From a virus, in IMG/VR virus record IMGVR_UViG_3300032285_001768, positions 1 to 55,919 of that record: 55,919 bases of DNA. One strand, 5' to 3'. The notes beneath the pieces were generated by a model. It was not told the DNA's origin and searched no databases. It saw nothing but the letters and a program-made list of their open reading frames with translations. The translations under genes were made by a program, and so were the position numbers. Shown here one piece after another: positions 43,789-51,242 of this stretch (its first letter is position 1; each line of letters opens with the position of its first letter).

Positions 43789-45246
43789 CTAATAGTACTC
43801 CGTCACAAGCTCCTGCGATCCCGGCTCATCCGCTTCATCCGTCTCCAACGCAATAAAGTTACCCGCACGAAACCTCATCAAAGCCTGCGTCGTGCTGTCC
43901 ACCATGTCATCATTGTCCCCATTCGGAAATGCCGCGCACTCCTCAACAAGAGCCTCCGCCCAATCCGTGTCCGGTGCCCACACCATCCCCGCCTCCAACA
44001 TCGGCGCAACAGAATTGGCCCTCGAAATCTTGTCCGTACCCGCCCGCCGTCCTCCCGGAGAGTACATCGTCACAGGTATCCCCACCCGCCGCAACTCCTG
44101 CTGCAACGTCACACCCGTCGCCTTCGCCTCAATCAAAACATTATCCGGCTTCCAATAATCATACTGCGCCTTCGCCACACGCTTTAACTCCGGGAAATCC
44201 CACCTCCCCTTCTTCACATCCATCAAAACAATATTAGGACCCGAGTCCTGATCAGGATGAAACACGCCCCACGTCGTAATCACACTATAGTCAGCCGTTT
44301 CCTTCTTTGAATACGCCGTGTCATACGACTGAATAATGTAATCCACAGCAGGCGGATTCTCCGAAGGCCAAACCTTCCACCACTCCCTCTTCAAAATCGC
44401 ACCCTCATCATTCGTAGGCTGCTGCTGCCACTGCGCCTGCCACTTCTGCACGGACAACGCTGCACGCACACTCTGCAACTCCGACAACTGCCAAAACTGC
44501 GGCCACAACGGATTGCCAGACGGCAAAATCGCCGGAAACTCAATCACCTCCCAACTGTCAGCCTTGTGCGACGTCTGCTGCTTCACCAACCTGGCAGTCA
44601 AATCCTTCGTCCCCCAGCGCGTCATCACCACAACAATCGCACCACCAGGCTGCAACCGCTGCCGCGGACCCGATGTGTACCACTCCCACGCATTGTCCAA
44701 CGCCATCTCACTCAACGCATCCTGCTCCGAATGCGGATCATCAATCACCAAAAGATCCGCACCCCGCCCAGTCATCGCACCACCCACACCAACAGCAAAG
44801 TACTCCCCGCCCTTGTCCGTCTCCCACCGGCCCGCCGCCTTGCTATCAGCCTGCAACGTCACCTTCGGAAACACCTCCTTGTACTCCGTCGAATCCATCA
44901 AGTTCCGCACCTTCCGGCCAAACCGCACAGCTAACTCACCCGTGTGCGTCGCCTGAATGATCTTGGTCCGCGGACGATGGCCCATGACATACGCCGGCAG
45001 CAAATAGGACGCGAACTCAGACTTTGTATGCCGCGGCGGCATATTAATAATTAGCCTTTTTAAAGAGCCGTCAACAACTCTATTAAAGGCATTGGCCATC
45101 TTTTCATGGTGCGAGCCAATGATTGCCTCGGGCCAAACATAACGGACAAAGGAAAGAAAGTCTCCTTGTGCCTTGTCTAATACCTCAAGCTTCGCGAGCC
45201 GGTATTCAAGTCTTAGTCGTTGGGCTTCTGCTTCTTCAGGGGTCAT
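43789..45246 (-). CDS. terminase large subunit
   Basis: A 485-residue DNA-packaging motor. Walker A-like MPPRHTKSE is at about residues 69-77 and Walker B LLVIDDPHSEQD at about 165-176, followed by the coupling motif VVMTRWGTKDL. The C-terminal nuclease has IIQSYDTAYS, VLIEAKATGV and DDMVDSTTQAL with the expected acidic residues. This is the P22/Sf6-like large terminase group. ATG 45246 has no clear ribosome binding site, only AAAGCAATTGGCC. Unusually, the small subunit is not adjacent but about 5.3 kb away. Confidence 0.94.
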   Translation of the reverse strand: MTPEEAEAQRLRLEYRLAKLEVLDKAQGDFLSFVRYVWPEAIIGSHHEKMANAFNRVVDGSLKRLIINMPPRHTKSEFASYLLPAYVMGHRPRTKIIQATHTGELAVRFGRKVRNLMDSTEYKEVFPKVTLQADSKAAGRWETDKGGEYFAVGVGGAMTGRGADLLVIDDPHSEQDALSEMALDNAWEWYTSGPRQRLQPGGAIVVVMTRWGTKDLTARLVKQQTSHKADSWEVIEFPAILPSGNPLWPQFWQLSELQSVRAALSVQKWQAQWQQQPTNDEGAILKREWWKVWPSENPPAVDYIIQSYDTAYSKKETADYSVITTWGVFHPDQDSGPNIVLMDVKKGRWDFPELKRVAKAQYDYWKPDNVLIEAKATGVTLQQELRRVGIPVTMYSPGGRRAGTDKISRANSVAPMLEAGMVWAPDTDWAEALVEECAAFPNGDNDDMVDSTTQALMRFRAGNFIALETDEADEPGSQELVTEYY

Positions 45247-45720
45247 TGGCCAATTGCTTTAAAAATTTGCAAAAAATTTTTTTAGAAACATGATTGTAAC
45301 CAAAGGGGGCCTGTTTCTGCCAATTCATTTTTCGGTCGTCATCCATTGTGTGAAATCGGGCTAAAGCCTGCGAAGCCCGGGCGGGGGCCCAAAAACCGGG
45401 GGCCGGGGTCCAAGCAAGCGCCGTGCCATGCGACATTCGGGGCCGGGGATCCTCGGGCCATGCTGCAGTGCACAATGCCCGCGACCCGCGCCAATCCTAG
45501 CATTGTCCACGATCCATGTTGCATTGCACAATCGGCCATCGATGCCTGAACGATCGCGCGCGATCCATGCCCGCATGCCACATGCGACACAATGCCACGG
45601 CCCACGGCCCACGGCCCACGCGTCATATACACGGAACAATCAAGCATTCACCACGGCCCGCGGCCCACGGTCAAGCTTGAGCCCGACGCGTGCCAATCGG
45701 GCCGGCCTATGTTGGGGGCA
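45247..45720. other. non-coding, repeat-rich region upstream of large terminase
   Basis: About 470 bases without a convincing gene. The first 50 bases are AT-rich (runs of A and T around 45260-45285) and hold a weak minus-strand promoter candidate: TGCCAA (TTGGCA) at 45318-45323 and ATTGTA (TACAAT) at 45293-45298, spacer 19. The rest is GC-rich, full of GGCC, CGATCG, GCATGC and CCATG words and contains tandem 7-base units of CCACGGC at 45595-45620. Open frames on both strands here are Cys/Trp/Gly/Pro-rich artefacts of the repeats. It may be a decayed gene or a packaging/regulatory site. Confidence 0.6.
45595..45620. repeat. tandem heptamer CCACGGC array
   Basis: CCACGGC is repeated three times in exact tandem followed by a partial fourth copy, and a related CCACGGCCCGCGGCCCACGG lies 50 bases later. 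This is the cleanest case of the period-7 repeats that occur elsewhere in the window. Confidence 0.85.
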
Positions 45721-45749
45721 TAAAAAAACCCGGGCATCGGCCCGGGTTC
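45721..45749 (-). terminator. intrinsic terminator after 89-residue gene
   Basis: AACCCGGGC and GCCCGGGTT (45727-45735 and 45740-45748) form a 9-bp stem with a 4-base loop. On the minus strand it is followed by seven T residues. It ends the transcript of the accessory island 20 bases after the last small gene, isolating it from the large terminase gene. Confidence 0.88.
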
Positions 45750-46048: not shown

Positions 46049-46082
46049 TCCGATTAAATCGGGCCCGGATCGGGCCCGGGCC
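46049..46082 (-). promoter_or_regulatory. 5' leader hairpin of the 89-residue gene
   Basis: Minus-strand leader with CGGGCCCG, three bases and CGGGCCCG, which can pair as an 8-bp hairpin (or each half with itself), then GATTTAATCGGAGAAAGTGAG and the start. A -10-like TTTATGTG is upstream, but no good -35 is visible. It shares the hairpin plus AGAAAGTGAG plan with the other island genes. Confidence 0.5.
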
Positions 46083-46132
46083 AATGATGGCACATAAACA
46101 CGAATGCAACAAAAAAACGGCGAGCCCGATCA

Positions 46133-46843
46133 TTACGCGGCCCGTCCAATATCGCCGGCAATATGGTGACGCAAGAGTGAGCCCGCGGGTAGATCGGCCG
46201 CGAATGCCAATAGGGCCCGCGCGTCATCCGATCGGCCATTGGCCCGCGTGCCATGCCATTGAATCGCCGTCGGGCCACTCGCCGCGTAGCATCCGCCCGA
46301 TTTAGTCGCATCCTCAGCAAGTTTCCGGCCCGTGCCATGCGCCAAAAACACGATCACATAATCGCGATTCGGACGCGCGCACAATGGCACGCCATTGCCG
46401 CACGATTGACACGTAAACCCTGAGCCCGCGGGGCTCAATTGTTCAGGGCAAACTACAAACTTAACGCCATCCTCGATTCGCGGCCATTGGTCGCGACTAT
46501 CGGCCGGGGCCGCGGCCAATACGGCCGGCTTACCCGCACGAACTGATGCGATCGCATCGGCCATGGTATCGGCCGAAAAATTAATCACCGTCCGGCCGGC
46601 TTGCGGCCGCGGCAATCTAGACCAATGAAAATGCGAAAATGCCCACGCATGGCCCGATGGCGGCACGGCCCGGGAAACGGCCCGCATATATGCAATATCG
46701 ATTGCGGCCGAGCTATCGGCCGGCTTAGGGTTTAAGGGGCACGTCGCGGGGCACGTCGCGAACGTGGCATGCTGCCCCGCGCGGTACGTTACCGCGATAG
46801 GGCCGGTCTTAGCGTTACTAGATTTAACTACGGTCTTTAGCAT
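46133..46843 (-). CDS. Cys-rich phage protein (DUF7227-like candidate)
   Basis: A 236-residue protein. Cysteines come in pairs: ATCPATCPLNP at about residues 30-40, FTCQSCGNGVPLCA in the middle and GGCYAASGP toward the C terminus. The early part SSNAKTGPIAVTYRAGQHAT followed by CPxxCPL and a later CYA resembles the DUF7227-type phage proteins; I am moderately sure. The Cys groups could bind a metal or iron-sulphur cluster. The gene has its own leader: -10-like TATGAT, hairpin and AGAAAGTGAG. GC content is higher than in the late genes. Confidence 0.65.
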   Translation of the reverse strand: MLKTVVKSSNAKTGPIAVTYRAGQHATFATCPATCPLNPKPADSSAAIDIAYMRAVSRAVPPSGHAWAFSHFHWSRLPRPQAGRTVINFSADTMADAIASVRAGKPAVLAAAPADSRDQWPRIEDGVKFVVCPEQLSPAGSGFTCQSCGNGVPLCARPNRDYVIVFLAHGTGRKLAEDATKSGGCYAASGPTAIQWHGTRANGRSDDARALLAFAADLPAGSLLRHHIAGDIGRAA

Positions 46844-46859
46844 GTCATTCTCACTTTCT

Positions 46860-46894
46860 GATCGGGCCCGGGATAGGCCCGCACGGCAATCATA
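46860..46894 (-). promoter_or_regulatory. promoter -10 and 5' hairpin of the Cys-rich gene
   Basis: On the minus strand TATGAT (46889-46894, five of six matches) is followed by TGCCGTG and a hairpin made of CGGGCC and GGCCCG with a 7-base loop, then ATCAGAAAGTGAGAATGAC and the start ATG. The -35 region is occupied by the stem of the upstream terminator and shows no match, so the promoter is weak or activator-dependent. Confidence 0.5.
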
Positions 46895-46898
46895 AACG

Positions 46899-46923
46899 AA
46901 AAAACCCGGCCGGGGCCGGGTTT
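46899..46923 (-). terminator. intrinsic terminator after 95-residue gene
   Basis: AAACCCGGCC-GG-GGCCGGGTTT forms a very stable stem with two-base loop; on the minus strand six T residues follow. It ends the 95-residue gene unit directly before the next promoter. Confidence 0.85.
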
Positions 46924-46957
46924 CTGCAGATAGGACGCTCGAATCGTCCAGGAGTGG

Positions 46958-47245
46958 TTAGTCGCTTGCGGTCTCCACCTCGCGGGCCGCGTCCTGTTCG
47001 CGCACGTACTGTTTTTTTGCGTTTTCGGCGGCCTCTTCGTTTTCGTATACCCGCTGGGTCCCGAATGCAATCTGAGTGCCTCCATGGTCCGAAACGTAAT
47101 CGAAGGTTTTCCACGGGTTACTGCAGTAGGTGCTCCGAATCGCCTGCAGGCCAATAAGGGCCAGCAAGTCTGCAAGCTTAGTACCATTCGGGATAGCGAA
47201 CGATTGCGAACCAATGGTGATGGTTTGAACGGTTTTTTGGGTCAT
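46958..47245 (-). CDS. hypothetical 95-residue protein, accessory island
   Basis: A soluble 95-residue protein: TQKTVQTITIGSQSFAIPNG, then LADLLALIGLQAIRSTYCSN, VYENEEAAENAKKQYVREQD. No family recognised. The C-terminal third is a charged helix. It has its own promoter, hairpin and AGAAAGTGAGAAT leader, and is followed by a strong terminator, so it is a single-gene unit. Confidence 0.68.
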   Translation of the reverse strand: MTQKTVQTITIGSQSFAIPNGTKLADLLALIGLQAIRSTYCSNPWKTFDYVSDHGGTQIAFGTQRVYENEEAAENAKKQYVREQDAAREVETASD

Positions 47246-47275
47246 GATCGATTCTCACTTTCTGAGGGTTAAAAA

Positions 47276-47329
47276 CCCGGCCGGCTGGCCGGGATGCAAA
47301 CTATAAAACGAGTCAGGCGGGCAATGCAA
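47276..47329 (-). promoter_or_regulatory. promoter and 5' hairpin of the 95-residue gene
   Basis: Minus strand: TTGCAT (47324-47329), 18-base spacer, TATAGT (47300-47305), then a hairpin CCCGGCC-AGCC-GGCCGGG (47276-47293) and five T residues, then the AGAAAGTGAG ribosome binding site. The hairpin starts within about 7 bases of the -10, so it would form the extreme 5' end of the mRNA. With its T-run it could also terminate the upstream DUF932 transcript. Confidence 0.65.
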
Positions 47330-48326
47330 GCATGTCGATGGCGCGAGCCTTAATCGCGGCCCCAGTCCCGAACCAAGCACTTTCGAGCCGGGTATTGTCA
47401 GACCGTCCGCGCTCGTGATCGACCAGCTGGGTGACTGCATTCAGCATCGCCCAGCGCGAGCCGGCGACGCCCGGGATATCGGCCCCGATTGCGTTGCCAT
47501 TGAATAACTCAATGGTGCGCTTGAATGCTTTCGACTCGCGAATGTCCGACTTGCCCTGATGGTAGGGGGCCAGCAATGCCTGGACGAATTCGTCCGCCTG
47601 TTCTGCAGTCATGGGCTCGCCGGCCAGCTGGCGCGACTCAACCATAAAGCGTTCAAACTGCGACGTGACAATGCCCAGCTGGAGCCGGACCTCGTCGGCG
47701 TCGAACCGTTCCGAGTGCAACACGCGCACGGCCGATTTAAGGTAACCCTTGTCGGTCTCCGCCTCGCCTTTAACGCCGCGGCCATAAACGGTCCCGCCAA
47801 CCGCGGCCGTTATAGTGTTATTACATACCACCCTGATCGCGGTGAACTTCGCGACCGTGGCCATGGTTCCGTCATAGGACGTGCCCAGCAATAAATAAGG
47901 CTTGACCAAGTCTCCGTCGACGACTGGCGCGGCCTCGCCGACTTGCGCCAGCGCCCACACTCGTTTCCCGTCGCTGAGTGCGCCCGCGGTCTCCAGCTGG
48001 AAGCCGCCGACGTCGACCAACCTCGCGAAAAAATCCATCACTTGGGCCGGCTGGACGACATGATAATCCTTGCTGACTACGGCCAACGGTGCGCCCGTGT
48101 CCGAGCGGTGCAGGACTTTGCGGGCCGGCCACACTTGGTGCCCAGTCACGGCTGGCGTCTGATATTCCACGGCCGATTCCAGAACGGTGTATTCAAGTCC
48201 AGCTTGCCGCGTCCACTCTTCAATGCTGGCCCCAGCGGTCAGGGCCCGGCCGAGTCCGTGCCATGGGGTATGCCCGGTGTATGCCATCGCGGCCCGCCCG
48301 GTAGTTTCATCGATCATATGAGCCAT
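47313..48326 (-). CDS. DUF932 family phage/plasmid-like protein
   Basis: A 337-residue protein: MAHMIDETTGRAAMAYTGHT, PWHGLGRAL, then AVEYQTPAVTGHQVWPARKV, VVSKDYHVVQPAQVMDFFAR and LLLGTSYDGTMATVAKFTAI, RVVCNNTITAAV. This is the DUF932 pattern (WHGLG, Y.vvqp.e, vvCxNTL) found on phages and plasmids; its function is not established. ATG 48326 after AGAAAGGGATAGCAAA gives the conserved start; the frame extends to 48380 without a site. It has its own TTGACC/TATTGT promoter. Confidence 0.88.
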   Translation of the reverse strand: MAHMIDETTGRAAMAYTGHTPWHGLGRALTAGASIEEWTRQAGLEYTVLESAVEYQTPAVTGHQVWPARKVLHRSDTGAPLAVVSKDYHVVQPAQVMDFFARLVDVGGFQLETAGALSDGKRVWALAQVGEAAPVVDGDLVKPYLLLGTSYDGTMATVAKFTAIRVVCNNTITAAVGGTVYGRGVKGEAETDKGYLKSAVRVLHSERFDADEVRLQLGIVTSQFERFMVESRQLAGEPMTAEQADEFVQALLAPYHQGKSDIRESKAFKRTIELFNGNAIGADIPGVAGSRWAMLNAVTQLVDHERGRSDNTRLESAWFGTGAAIKARAIDMLALPA

Positions 48327-48350
48327 TTTGCTATCCCTTTCTGTGTTGAG

Positions 48351-48406
48351 CCGGGCAACGTGCCCGGCGAGTGCGAACAATAAACTAATGTCGTGAATCG
48401 GGTCAA
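48351..48406 (-). promoter_or_regulatory. promoter and 5' hairpin of the DUF932 gene
   Basis: Minus strand: TTGACC (48401-48406), 18-base spacer, TATTGT (48377-48382), then hairpin CCGGGCA-CGT-TGCCCGG (48351-48367) at the predicted 5' end and AGAAAGGG before the start. The -35 overlaps the TGA of the preceding gene. Confidence 0.7.
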
Positions 48407-49065
48407 GTCGGCGTTACAGGAGTGAGCCGGAGCTCCCCTAAATCGATCCGGTCTCCCGGAGCTGGTGAACCGGACACGGCGATGACGAGCTCAATCAGGA
48501 CGCGGCGAACTTCTTTCCTAACCAGCTGACTGGCAATTTCCCCGATAAAGTCCCGCATGTCGTCGCTCTGCTTGAGCCGATCCGCCACGTCCGTGGCCAG
48601 TACGGCCCGCCGGGCCTCCGGGATCAGAAAGTCAGTCACCGACGCAATCCGATCATCGGCGATCTGGCCCATGGTCTCCAGCAGTAAGTCCGAGCGGGCA
48701 AGATGCCCTGCCACTTCGACTGCCAGTTCGTCCGCGTGATTATTGCGAATTGTTCTCGCAATTTTCTCAACGTCCAGATTGTCCGCAATGTCCTCGAGGT
48801 CGAGCTCGTCGCTCACCTCGCGGGCCAAGTCCGACATGTCCAGATTGCTGGCGATGTCCGTATAGTCAAGATGATTGAGCACCTCATTGGCCAGATCCGT
48901 GTAATCCAGCTCGGCCGTGGTTTTTTCAGCGATTGCGGAGTAATCCAATTTGTCCGCAATGATATCGGTCAAGTCCATTTCAATGATGGCCTTGTCGGCA
49001 ACATCCTTCGCCAGCTGGGTGGAAAGTTGCTCGAACAGTTCTGATGATTTAACTGACATTTTCAT
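48403..49065 (-). CDS. 220-residue protein with LDYxDIA repeats
   Basis: No family recognised. Residues about 30-110 contain six tandem copies of LDxxDLA: LDYSAIAEKTTAE, LDYTDLANEVLNH, LDYTDIASN, LDMSDLAREVSDE, LDLEDIADN and LDVEKIART, with periods of 13 or 9 residues. The repeats are acidic and helical and look like a coiled or solenoid arrangement. The C-terminal half is helical with RKEVRRVLIELVIAV. It has the strongest promoter of the island and should be well expressed early. Confidence 0.72.
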   Translation of the reverse strand: MKMSVKSSELFEQLSTQLAKDVADKAIIEMDLTDIIADKLDYSAIAEKTTAELDYTDLANEVLNHLDYTDIASNLDMSDLAREVSDELDLEDIADNLDVEKIARTIRNNHADELAVEVAGHLARSDLLLETMGQIADDRIASVTDFLIPEARRAVLATDVADRLKQSDDMRDFIGEIASQLVRKEVRRVLIELVIAVSGSPAPGDRIDLGELRLTPVTPT

Positions 49066-49067
49066 TT

Positions 49068-49140
49068 CTCACTTTCTAAGGTTGAATGCCCGGACGGCGT
49101 CCGGTCCGGAGAATATAAAGACTATTGTGCGGCCTGTCAA
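49068..49140 (-). promoter_or_regulatory. strong sigma70-type promoter and 5' hairpin of the LDY-repeat gene
   Basis: Minus strand: TTGACA (49135-49140, perfect), 17-base spacer, TATATT (49112-49117, five of six). The predicted mRNA begins near CCGGACCGG and folds CCGGAC-GGC loop-GTCCGG (49090-49104), followed by TTAGAAAGTGAGAA as the ribosome binding site. This is the best promoter in the window. Confidence 0.85.
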
Positions 49141-49144
49141 GCGG

Positions 49145-49357
49145 CTATTTGAACATACCCCCAATCAGGGACCGGAAGGCCAGCCAGCGGGCCAAATAGG
49201 TCATCGCGGCCCGGAAGTCGGCTTTCTGGCGCTCCAGTCGACGGCGACGGAGCTCGTCCCGGGGCAGGGCATTCGTCCTGGCGTCACCCCCCAATCGCGC
49301 AGGGGGTTTTTTCATGGTTTTGCTGGCCCAACGCGGGGCCTTTCCTTTGAGTCTCAT
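49145..49357 (-). CDS. hypothetical 70-residue basic protein
   Basis: A strongly basic protein: MRLKGKAPRWASKTMKKPPA, LPRDELRRRRLERQKADFRA and AMTYLARWLAFRSLIGGMFK with a hydrophobic, possibly membrane-seeking C terminus. The open frame extends to 49510 over the 137-residue gene, but ATG 49357 with AAAGG nine bases before it, just after that gene's stop, is the natural start. No family recognised. Confidence 0.6.
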   Translation of the reverse strand: MRLKGKAPRWASKTMKKPPARLGGDARTNALPRDELRRRRLERQKADFRAAMTYLARWLAFRSLIGGMFK

Positions 49358-49370
49358 TCTGATTGGCCTT

Positions 49371-49784
49371 TCAATAATCGTCGCGAAGCGCACCGGGGTA
49401 TTTCTGCTCGAGCTCGACAGCCCGGGCATCCGCGGCTTCCCAAGTCTCAAAATCCTCGTCTTCAAGAAGGTCAACAAGGCCCCCATCGGAGTATTCTCGA
49501 ACATGCACATTGAATAGGACTGGCTGACCCTCTTTGATTGCCCGAGGATTCACGTAGGTGTAGCCGTTGCCTCCCTCCAGCTCGATCATACTAATCACCG
49601 AAACCTCATGAGTAGGCGGCGGACTCACCGCGGGTTCAGCTAGGTTCACGGCGAGAATCGTCCATTTGCCCTCGAAATTGTCTTCCGCGGCCTCAAAGGC
49701 ATTTGCAATCGCGTCGGGTTTTGTTTCCCCTTCGACCTCAAGCGTCACCAGCGATTTGTATTCCATTACGACCGTGTATTTCAT
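49371..49784 (-). CDS. hypothetical 137-residue protein, accessory island
   Basis: An acidic protein: MKYTVVMEYKSLVTLEVEGE, TKPDAIANAFEAAEDNFEGK, then a linker and ALFNVHVREYSDGG-like strands, ending EQKYPGALRDDY. The N-terminal beta-alpha unit resembles small phage proteins of the kind that start with YTV...VEAxxxxxAxxxA, but I cannot name a family. Its ATG overlaps the stop of the 110-residue gene (ATGA). Confidence 0.68.
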   Translation of the reverse strand: MKYTVVMEYKSLVTLEVEGETKPDAIANAFEAAEDNFEGKWTILAVNLAEPAVSPPPTHEVSVISMIELEGGNGYTYVNPRAIKEGQPVLFNVHVREYSDGGLVDLLEDEDFETWEAADARAVELEQKYPGALRDDY

Positions 49785-50113
49785 TTTTGATCCCCTTTAA
49801 TTAAGCCCTTCGCCTTGAATGCCCAGCGCCAGTACTTGGCGCTTCGCGGGAGGTTTTTTTGTGAATAGTGCAAGGTGTTCGATTCCCAAACCCCGGTATG
49901 CATATCCATGATCTCGCTGGTCGTCAGATGTTCATTTGGATGACCCTCCGCCGGATAGCAGGACGACCACCTAAATCCGTCGTCTTCCATCATCCAGATC
50001 AGCTCTTTGAACGTGACCGGCTGATCCTCGAAATGGAAACCGTCATCCTCAAGGTCGACTTCGCCGTCGTCAGCGACGGAGTAGTTTTCCCAGCACTTCG
50101 TAACCAAAATCAT
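49781..50113 (-). CDS. hypothetical 110-residue phage protein
   Basis: An acidic, Trp-rich protein: MILVTKCWENYSVADDGEVD, then FEDQPVTFKELIWMMEDDGF, RWSSCYPAEGHPNEHLTTSE and EIMDMHTGVWESNTLHYSQK. I recognise the order FEDxxVxFxELxxxxxxxxxxxSxxxxxxxxxxWxSxxxxxxY from uncharacterised phage proteins. Function unknown. It has its own TTGACG/TATAGT promoter and AGAAAGGAG site. Confidence 0.75.
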   Translation of the reverse strand: MILVTKCWENYSVADDGEVDLEDDGFHFEDQPVTFKELIWMMEDDGFRWSSCYPAEGHPNEHLTTSEIMDMHTGVWESNTLHYSQKNLPRSAKYWRWAFKAKGLIKGDQK

Positions 50114-50132
50114 CGCTTTCTCCTTTCTAAGT

Positions 50133-50188
50133 CGGGCTCAACCGCTGAACCCGAGCCGCAACTATAACTGGTTTTTTTACTCCGTCAA
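50133..50188 (-). promoter_or_regulatory. promoter and 5' hairpin of the 110-residue gene
   Basis: Minus strand: TTGACG (50183-50188), 16-base spacer with an A-run, TATAGT (50161-50166), then hairpin CGGGTTCA-GCGGT-TGAGCCCG (50133-50153, one G-U pair) near the predicted 5' end and TTAGAAAGGAG before the start. The -35 overlaps the end of the nuclease gene. Confidence 0.75.
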
Positions 50189-50590
50189 CCGCAAGTGCAT
50201 CATGTTCCAGATTGGGCCGTTGGCCGGCCACGACTCTAGCGGCTCAAGGTCAATCCCGTCACGGAGCAATGCCGCGGCCTGACTTCCACGGTAGAGCATA
50301 AGCTCTGCTTTTGCGACGTTAGTTGTCCCGGGCGGGTGATACTGGACCAGTATGAACGTCGGGCAACCAACTTCCGCATGCGCCATGTGGAAGGAAACTT
50401 GGTGAGGGCTTAGGGACACTTGCCTACCCCGCTTCACGACCTTCAACTCAAGCAGCACGAACTTCGCGGGTTTACGAAACGCGATCAGAACGTCCGGTAT
50501 CCCAAGATTGACGCGGGATTCAATCCGGGTCATCCGACTCAAGGGCAGGTTCTCCCTCAGCCGGTTGTACAACGATTGCTCGGGCTTCAC
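50177..50590 (-). CDS. PD-(D/E)XK / VRR-NUC-like nuclease
   Basis: A 137-residue protein with the nuclease core RIESRVNLGIPDVLIAF, then FVLLELKVVKRGRQVSLSPH and QVSFHMAHAEVGCPTFILVQ: the catalytic PD and ELK are spaced as in small phage endonucleases related to Holliday junction resolvases. The N-terminal KPEQSLYNRLRENL is typical of the group. Start GTG 50590 overlaps the small terminase by 71 bases; ATG 50533 would cut off conserved sequence. It may resolve branched DNA before or during packaging, next to the small terminase. Confidence 0.82.
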   Translation of the reverse strand: MKPEQSLYNRLRENLPLSRMTRIESRVNLGIPDVLIAFRKPAKFVLLELKVVKRGRQVSLSPHQVSFHMAHAEVGCPTFILVQYHPPGTTNVAKAELMLYRGSQAAALLRDGIDLEPLESWPANGPIWNMMHLRLTE

Positions 50591-51242
50591 TTAGGTCCTT
50601 CAGGGTTTGAGTTGGGTCGAAGGGCGGGTCGACTTCAAGAGACTTGCCAATTTCCGTCATGGGAAGGTCAATGATCTCTTTAGGCGGCGGTCCGCCATAC
50701 AAGGCTTTTAGTTCTGCCAGCTTGCGCTCTACTTCCTCGCGGCTCATCGAGTCAATGGTGCCGTGTCGGATCTCCTTCCTATCCACGTAGATCGTCCCTA
50801 AAGCCTGTCCACGGCGATATTCAGCCTGTACGGCAGCGCCGTATGCCCCCGCGGCGAGGGCCGCGTCACGGATCGTCTGCATATCGCGCATATGCCGTTC
50901 ATATGTCGTCCCGTACCGTTGCGCCAGTTGGCTACGGTATTCCTGGATCGCAGCAACAATATGCGGGTTTTTTTTCGGGTTAGTTAGGTCGTTGCCGCTT
51001 TGACTAGCGCGGACCTCGGTATACCCCGCACGGATCGCGGCTTCTTTTAAAGTGACCTCTCCGCAGCCCGCTACAAACTCCTGTACAAATTTCCACTCCT
51101 TTGGGGACAGGGGCTTGTTTTGGTCTTCAAATTTGGCAACGGGTGTCGCTAATTTGTCATTTACCGCCCCCGCAACGGTCTTTGGGATGGTTTTCTGGGT
51201 CAAAACCTTGCTGACCCGGGTTGGACGACCGCCTTTGTTCAT
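50520..51242 (-). CDS. terminase small subunit
   Basis: A 240-residue DNA-recognition subunit of the packaging motor. LSPKEWKFVQEFVAGCG, then VTLKEAAIRAGYTE, SGNDLTNPKKNPHIVAAIQE is the Terminase_2-type helix-turn-helix core (about residues 45-105), followed by a helical oligomerisation region (RDMQTIRDAALAAGAYGAAV) and a C-terminal acidic tail with SMSREEVERKLAEL. It is separated from the large subunit by the accessory island. The intergenic repeats directly upstream could be its packaging site. Confidence 0.88.
   Translation of the reverse strand: MNKGGRPTRVSKVLTQKTIPKTVAGAVNDKLATPVAKFEDQNKPLSPKEWKFVQEFVAGCGEVTLKEAAIRAGYTEVRASQSGNDLTNPKKNPHIVAAIQEYRSQLAQRYGTTYERHMRDMQTIRDAALAAGAYGAAVQAEYRRGQALGTIYVDRKEIRHGTIDSMSREEVERKLAELKALYGGPPPKEIIDLPMTEIGKSLEVDPPFDPTQTLKDLSEARAIVVQPAEGEPALESDDPD

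Follow-up and report, generated by a model that had tools for sequence, protein, structure and literature searches.

Predicted 5'-terminal stem-loop leaders with conserved RNA pairing stand before many unrelated genes in a family of uncultured freshwater phages

In T4-like phages, the cassettes called PeSLs (Arbiol 2010; Comeau 2014) reportedly combine a sigma70 promoter with a stem-loop in a short intergenic segment; they are said to sit on small genes in hyperplastic regions and to be associated with gene exchange. The two founding PeSL papers are cited in PMC4503421. In cluster K mycobacteriophages the start-associated sequences (SAS) and their ESAS counterparts comprise a repeated ribosome-site sequence at the start of many genes, with an upstream inverted repeat and a SigA-like promoter (PMC3203893, PMC11373665); the ESAS repeats conserve sequence, and their describers saw little support for mRNA hairpins (PMC3203893). 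A further class is the 5'-terminal stabilising stem-loop of the ompA and papA 5' untranslated regions (UTRs) and of T7 gene 10, in which a hairpin likewise lies at the 5' end with the ribosome site downstream (PMC3997798, PMC6146998). Placed at the very 5' end, a hairpin hinders RppH and can stabilise mRNA decayed by 5'-tethered RNase E (PMC3997798). In Cupriavidus necator a reporter gave 1.5-3-fold more output, and its mRNA was more abundant, when the T7 g10 stem-loop preceded the ribosome-binding site (PMC6146998). The present analysis concerns hairpin leaders in one uncultured virus record of 55,919 bases (IMG/VR record IMGVR_UViG_3300032285_001768, analysed at full length and called the window).

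In the window, a minus-strand island of mostly unknown genes separates the small terminase gene (50520-51242) from the large one (43789-45246), and six of the island genes open with a -10 box, a hairpin, a short spacer, an unpaired AGAAAG-type ribosome site and ATG. The ompA, papA and T7 gene 10 elements are known as single leaders, whereas here many genes per genome carry the arrangement, the stem differing from gene to gene, throughout a phage family; the 5'-terminal stabilising stem-loop is the closest described class, used here as a standard part. The promoters and hairpins are listed below (genes are named by their start positions; energies refer to the complete leader, beginning at its predicted start, and z-scores were taken against shuffles).

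50161..50188, minus strand, sigma70-type promoter TTGACG-16-TATAGT of gene 50113, kept in L214-L218
50132..50154, minus strand, predicted +1 hairpin TCGGGTTCA-GCGGT-TGAGCCCGA of gene 50113, 9 bp, -13.8 kcal/mol
49112..49140, minus strand, promoter TTGACA-17-TATATT of gene 49065
49090..49104, minus strand, predicted +1 hairpin CCGGAC-GCC-GTCCGG of gene 49065, 6 bp, -11.1 kcal/mol
48377..48406, minus strand, promoter TTGACC-18-TATTGT of the DUF932 gene 48326, kept in L007-L016
48350..48368, minus strand, predicted +1 hairpin GCCGGGCA-CGT-TGCCCGGC of the DUF932 gene 48326, 8 bp, -16.7 kcal/mol
47300..47329, minus strand, promoter TTGCAT-18-TATAGT of gene 47245, kept in L209-L213
47276..47293, minus strand, predicted +1 hairpin CCCGGCC-AGCC-GGCCGGG of gene 47245, followed by TTTTT and so also terminator-like, 7 bp, -19.0 kcal/mol
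46889..46894, minus strand, TATGAT, -10 box of gene 46843 without a clear -35, kept in L124-L128
46863..46881, minus strand, predicted +1 hairpin CGGGCC-TATCCCG-GGCCCG of gene 46843, without a U tract, 6-7 bp, -13.9 kcal/mol
46060..46078, minus strand, hairpin CGGGCCCG-ATC-CGGGCCCG of gene 46038, 8 bp, -17.1 kcal/mol

From the end of the -10 box to the first paired base there are 6, 7, 8, 6, 7 and 5 nt at genes 50113, 49065, 48326, 47245, 46843 and 46038, respectively, which would place the start of each stem within a few nucleotides of the predicted mRNA 5' end. An earlier note on this DNA had located the six leaders, with the hairpin in each clear case beginning within about ten bases of the -10 box, and had given good promoters for 49065, 50113 and 48326; all of these were recovered as described. 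Its two weaker promoters fared differently: that of 47245 is present and is rated good here, and the TATGAT of 46843 is conserved but no -35 can be recognised for it, the place of that box being filled by the upstream gene's terminator. The promoter of 46038, weak like that of 46843, is only a guess (TTGTTG-17-CATCAT). The same note had called all of the genes small, which does not hold for 48326 (337 amino acids), and had ascribed an AGAAAG(T/G)GAG leader to each of them: four genes carry AGAAAGTGAGAA, and 50113 (AGAAAGGAGAAAG) and 48326 (AGAAAGGGATAG) deviate. The sequence AGAAAGNGA occurs eight times in the window against 1.6 expected, a number reached in none of 100 shuffles. Ribosome-site motifs are well conserved within a genome and are genome-specific, being AGAAAGTGAGAA in the window and ACATACAGGAGAAA in phage DSL-LC04, where the latter or a close variant is common to several gene starts (L087, 7080-9650). 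At its stricter setting, a scan of the window for promoter, +1 hairpin, ribosome site and start codon returned six sites, of which four are leaders named above; 30 shuffles gave 1.1 on average and never more than three. Comparison of the window with the curated RNA families of Rfam gave no match at the gathering score.

Because the relatives were collected by way of DUF932, DUF7227 and other genes of the island, the counts that follow describe the phages carrying these genes and not phages at large. The leader-bearing relatives are uncultured freshwater bacterial viruses of one family. The DUF932 gene has 331 relatives in viral contigs, and 80 of these loci were fetched for comparison of the upstream region; in most of them the gene is preceded by a TTGACA-like box, a -10 box, a hairpin and a ribosome site that reads AGAAAG or similar, with stems as different as GCCGGGCA/TGCCCGGC, GTCGCTGC/GCAGCGGC and CCGAGCC/GGCTCGG. 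In 60 distinct DUF932 leaders, the first paired base lies 4-8 nt past the -10 box in 50 (mean z -2.1), and the structure is kept in most, with the ribosome site mostly unpaired. The same kind of scan over 693 kb of related loci gave 244 sites versus 20 in shuffled sequence; since this sequence includes near-identical contigs, later counts used distinct leaders. For a test of position, 465 distinct leaders with promoter and ribosome site were gathered blind to hairpins, and the strongest hairpin was sought anywhere from the -35 box to the ribosome site. Strong hairpins were found in 284, and 176 of the 284 begin 4-9 nt past the -10 box, where shuffled controls gave about 15. The distribution has a single sharp peak with its mode at 6 nt, so that the first paired base is the seventh, the canonical +1. 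The design is not tied to DUF932 as such: those plasmid, chromosome and distant phage copies of the gene that were read mostly stand without it, although a copy in Azohydromonas (L091) has it.

Pairing rather than sequence is conserved in these stems, and on the RNA strand. In 26 aligned DUF932 leaders, five stem pairs show double changes; 92.4% of the cells are paired versus 84.2% after shuffling, 19 cells are doubly changed versus 6.7, and the covariation score of 0.315 (shuffled, 0.201) was reached in none of 500 shuffles. Control stems slid along the alignment were 34-61% paired, and all fell below the covariation of the real stem. Stems at the other leaders also change between relatives: the counterparts of the 50113 hairpin are TCGGGCTCAA-CGG-TTGAGCCCGA and TCGGGATCAA-CGG-TTGATCCCGA, those of the 49065 hairpin are CCGGGC-GCC-GTCCGG with a G.U pair (L202) and CCGGG..CCCGG (L205), and that of the 46843 hairpin is CGGGCCCAGCCCGGGCCCG (L125/L128). 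The earlier suggestion that differing stems reflect a selected structure is thus strongly supported by the covariation and by the sharp peak over the 465 leaders, and the check proposed with it, whether stems stay paired in relatives, came out in its favour.

When one internal mismatch was allowed, 28 of 117 distinct hairpins contained G.U and six contained A.C, with shuffled sequence giving about equal numbers (two-sided binomial P = 0.0002, to be taken as a guide only because related sequences are not independent). In DNA, G.U and A.C are mirror images of each other; their unequal numbers therefore indicate that selection works on the strand as transcribed, and hence on the RNA. A roadblock operator, that is, a DNA palindrome at which a repressor acts just downstream of the promoter, could well lie at +1 to +20, and the palindrome TTGTCAATT..AATTGACAA found at a divergent operon of relatives is operator-like; yet the stems differ between genes of one genome, and the mismatch asymmetry largely refutes this reading, which we consider scarcely probable. 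Chance, or the composition of GC-rich intergenic DNA, might be invoked because the region is GC-rich and the individual folds of the six window hairpins have z-scores of only -1.3 to -3.1, but the offset peak, the covariation, the strand-asymmetric mismatches and the persistence of the arrangement in dozens of contigs refute it, and it can practically be dismissed. In the divergent operon just mentioned (L022:974 minus, L045:230 minus, G001:20322 plus, G004:35751 minus, G006:30078 plus), a consensus promoter comes first, followed by a hairpin such as TTGTCAATT-AGATA-AATTGACAA and then by TGTTCTTTAACA, which we take to be close to the rRNA boxA; this is possibly a Nus-type antitermination leader.

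Anatomy was examined in 131 distinct hairpins. Positions +1 to +4 have an unpaired probability of 0.17 (a mean pairing of 83% over these four nucleotides), the ribosome site is unpaired at 0.84 versus 0.71 with shuffled upstream sequence, and the median 5' UTR is 44 nt with a narrow spread of lengths. A U tract follows 11 of the 131 (8%), so that most of the +1 hairpins, judged by sequence only, are not terminators, the role that defines the stem-loop of a PeSL.

This bears on the reading in which the leaders are composite terminator/promoter cassettes of the PeSL kind, whose hairpin would stop transcription arriving from upstream and act as a site of recombination. The likeness consists in small cassettes of promoter and stem-loop that accompany gene exchange, and genes are indeed exchanged behind conserved leaders here; moreover, the 47245 hairpin with its TTTTT looks like a terminator, although the hairpin of its relative L209 is of another sequence and lacks the U tract. 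At gene 46843, however, a proper terminator (46925-46900) lies upstream of the -10 box and a second, separate hairpin without a U tract stands at +1. The comparison was also made on the sequence of RB49 itself, using a similar procedure with a general ribosome-site pattern. Of its 28 strong hairpins, 20 begin inside the promoter, at -24 to -13 relative to the end of the -10 box, and four lie at the post -10 position; the window gave four of four at +4 to +8, and complete or long relatives gave 16 of 25. In lambda, T4 and Escherichia coli segments together, the strongest hairpin lay 3-9 nt past the -10 box in one of 23 leaders with promoter and Shine-Dalgarno sequence. The RB49 hairpin thus lies between -35 and -10 or around -10, outside the new mRNA, whereas the hairpins here start at +1, mostly without a U tract. 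Identity with PeSLs is rejected on these grounds, and the composite-cassette explanation is distinctly unlikely, even with the palindromes over -10 in some related leaders counted in its favour. Such palindromes enclosing the -10 box (L136, L150 and L158-L184 upstream of the DUF7227 gene; L020, L036 and L065) are nearer to the PeSL arrangement, and both designs, at +1 and over -10, are present in the related phages.

The closeness of the hairpin to a ribosome site that is kept open would also suit recognition by an RNA-binding protein of phage or host, ribosome-associated or regulatory, that enhances or represses translation. Against this, no common loop or stem sequence was seen in the 131 hairpins, the commonest loops occurring six times each and loop lengths ranging from 3 to 8; a protein reading merely a generic 5'-terminal duplex would still fit, and overall we regard this account as fairly unlikely. 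SAS/ESAS leaders resemble those described here in having a start-associated ribosome-site motif conserved within the genome, an upstream inverted repeat and a promoter, but ESAS conserves sequence and these leaders conserve pairing with most of the stem sequence free; identity with ESAS was rejected because the stems differ and their pairs covary. Finally, the hairpin could act on RNA polymerase as a nascent-RNA element, by put-like antitermination or another promoter-proximal effect. The put element of HK022, also a structured RNA just downstream of early phage promoters, acts in cis to suppress pausing and termination on early phage genes (PMC9378689), but it is a specific antitermination element of defined structure, while the leaders here are plain single hairpins of free sequence and at least some of the units are short, each closed by a terminator of its own. 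This explanation appears very improbable.

It is probable that the leaders are modular 5'-terminal stem-loops that block 5'-end-dependent mRNA decay (RppH/RNase E) and leave the ribosome site open. Each would be a compact expression module with a host sigma70-type promoter and a 5' UTR of about 44 nt. Transcription would start at the first paired base, and the first transcribed bases would form a GC-rich hairpin of 5-12 bp, behind which an unpaired spacer leads to an open ribosome site of the AGAAAG/GGAG type and then to the start codon. An RppH-type pyrophosphohydrolase and the 5'-monophosphate-dependent RNase E would be left no single-stranded 5' end, and each short message would live longer and yield more protein. 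The protective role fits best because G.U exceeds A.C, no stem or loop sequence is shared, the first nucleotides are paired, the ribosome site is free and U tracts are few. Transcription starts and stabilisation are both inferred; paired first nucleotides, an open ribosome site and a narrow 5' UTR are what such protection requires structurally, which makes stabilisation the best-supported reading. Several points weigh against it. The CGGG/CCCG core of the DUF932 stems is conserved in sequence, so that lineage memory or a role of the sequence itself may be involved; two of the six window leaders have weak promoters; some related leaders carry a palindrome over -10 instead (the DUF7227 group, L136-L184, and L020/L036/L065); and rpsO and T7-transcribed lacZ are E. 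coli mRNAs that 5' structure does not stabilise (PMC3997798).

The leaders stand before about 40 unrelated protein families. At one island slot compared over ten loci, the upstream 450 nt are 79-96% identical and the leader 77-99% identical, and the open reading frames (ORFs) behind the leader are mostly without detectable DNA similarity; these ORFs are mostly of 52-121 amino acids, and one encodes a NinX homologue. Over all sites there are 28 pairs of families with leaders at least 80% identical. The leader is thus associated with exchange of unrelated genes; this exchange behind a fixed leader and the spread over some 40 families were beyond the reach of the earlier note. Small genes could be swapped without loss of expression, since every control element precedes the start codon. 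More tentatively, and short of probable in our judgement, promoter, +1 hairpin and ribosome site may form a family-wide plug-in cassette that protects any message and also serves as homology for the exchange of small accessory genes, the leader and not the gene being the conserved unit. As a separate observation, near-identical leaders with long palindromes CGGTACTGG-CTAG-CCAGTACCG (L054:6258, 6581 and 7173; L050, L053, L074) precede different genes of one contig, as paralogous cassettes.

If these readings are true, hairpins at the 5' end of the mRNA would be a standard part for phages, used on dozens of gene families and not as an occasional feature, and the leader alone would mark gene-exchange slots with small accessory genes. 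More than 100 natural stems, all different and all at one position, offer a ready test set both for the rules by which mRNA is protected at its 5' end and for expression leaders to be used in proteobacteria. No published account of such leaders in these phages was found by a search that left most subscription journals and the two PeSL papers outside, so that an earlier description is possible; in the DSL-LC04 paper (PMC10611076) the words promoter and hairpin are absent.

The remaining features of the island are as follows.

49781..50113, minus strand, ORF of 110 amino acids, unknown, leading an apparent three-ORF unit
48403..49065, minus strand, ORF of 220 amino acids, unknown, with eight relatives in viral contigs
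47313..48326, minus strand, DUF932 protein (PF06067), 337 amino acids
46958..47245, minus strand, ORF of 95 amino acids, unknown
46900..46925, minus strand, intrinsic terminator of gene 47245, at the place expected for the -35 of the next promoter, with a compensated variant in L124
46133..46843, minus strand, DUF7227 protein (PF23872), 236 amino acids
45769..46038, minus strand, ORF of 89 amino acids, unknown, with relatives in several contigs
45726..45749, minus strand, intrinsic terminator closing the island

Direct DNA matching of the window against known phages gave no match, and a tRNA search of the window found none. The large terminase of the window shares 75.6% identity with its counterpart in DSL-LC04, a lake phage assembled from a metagenome, for which a family, 'Dishuiviridae', has been proposed (PMC10611076), and the window phage is a relative of that proposed family. 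A long GC-rich intergenic stretch with repeated GGGCCGTG motifs (45400-45720) lies before the large terminase gene of the window, and a comparable stretch is found at the same place in DSL-LC04.

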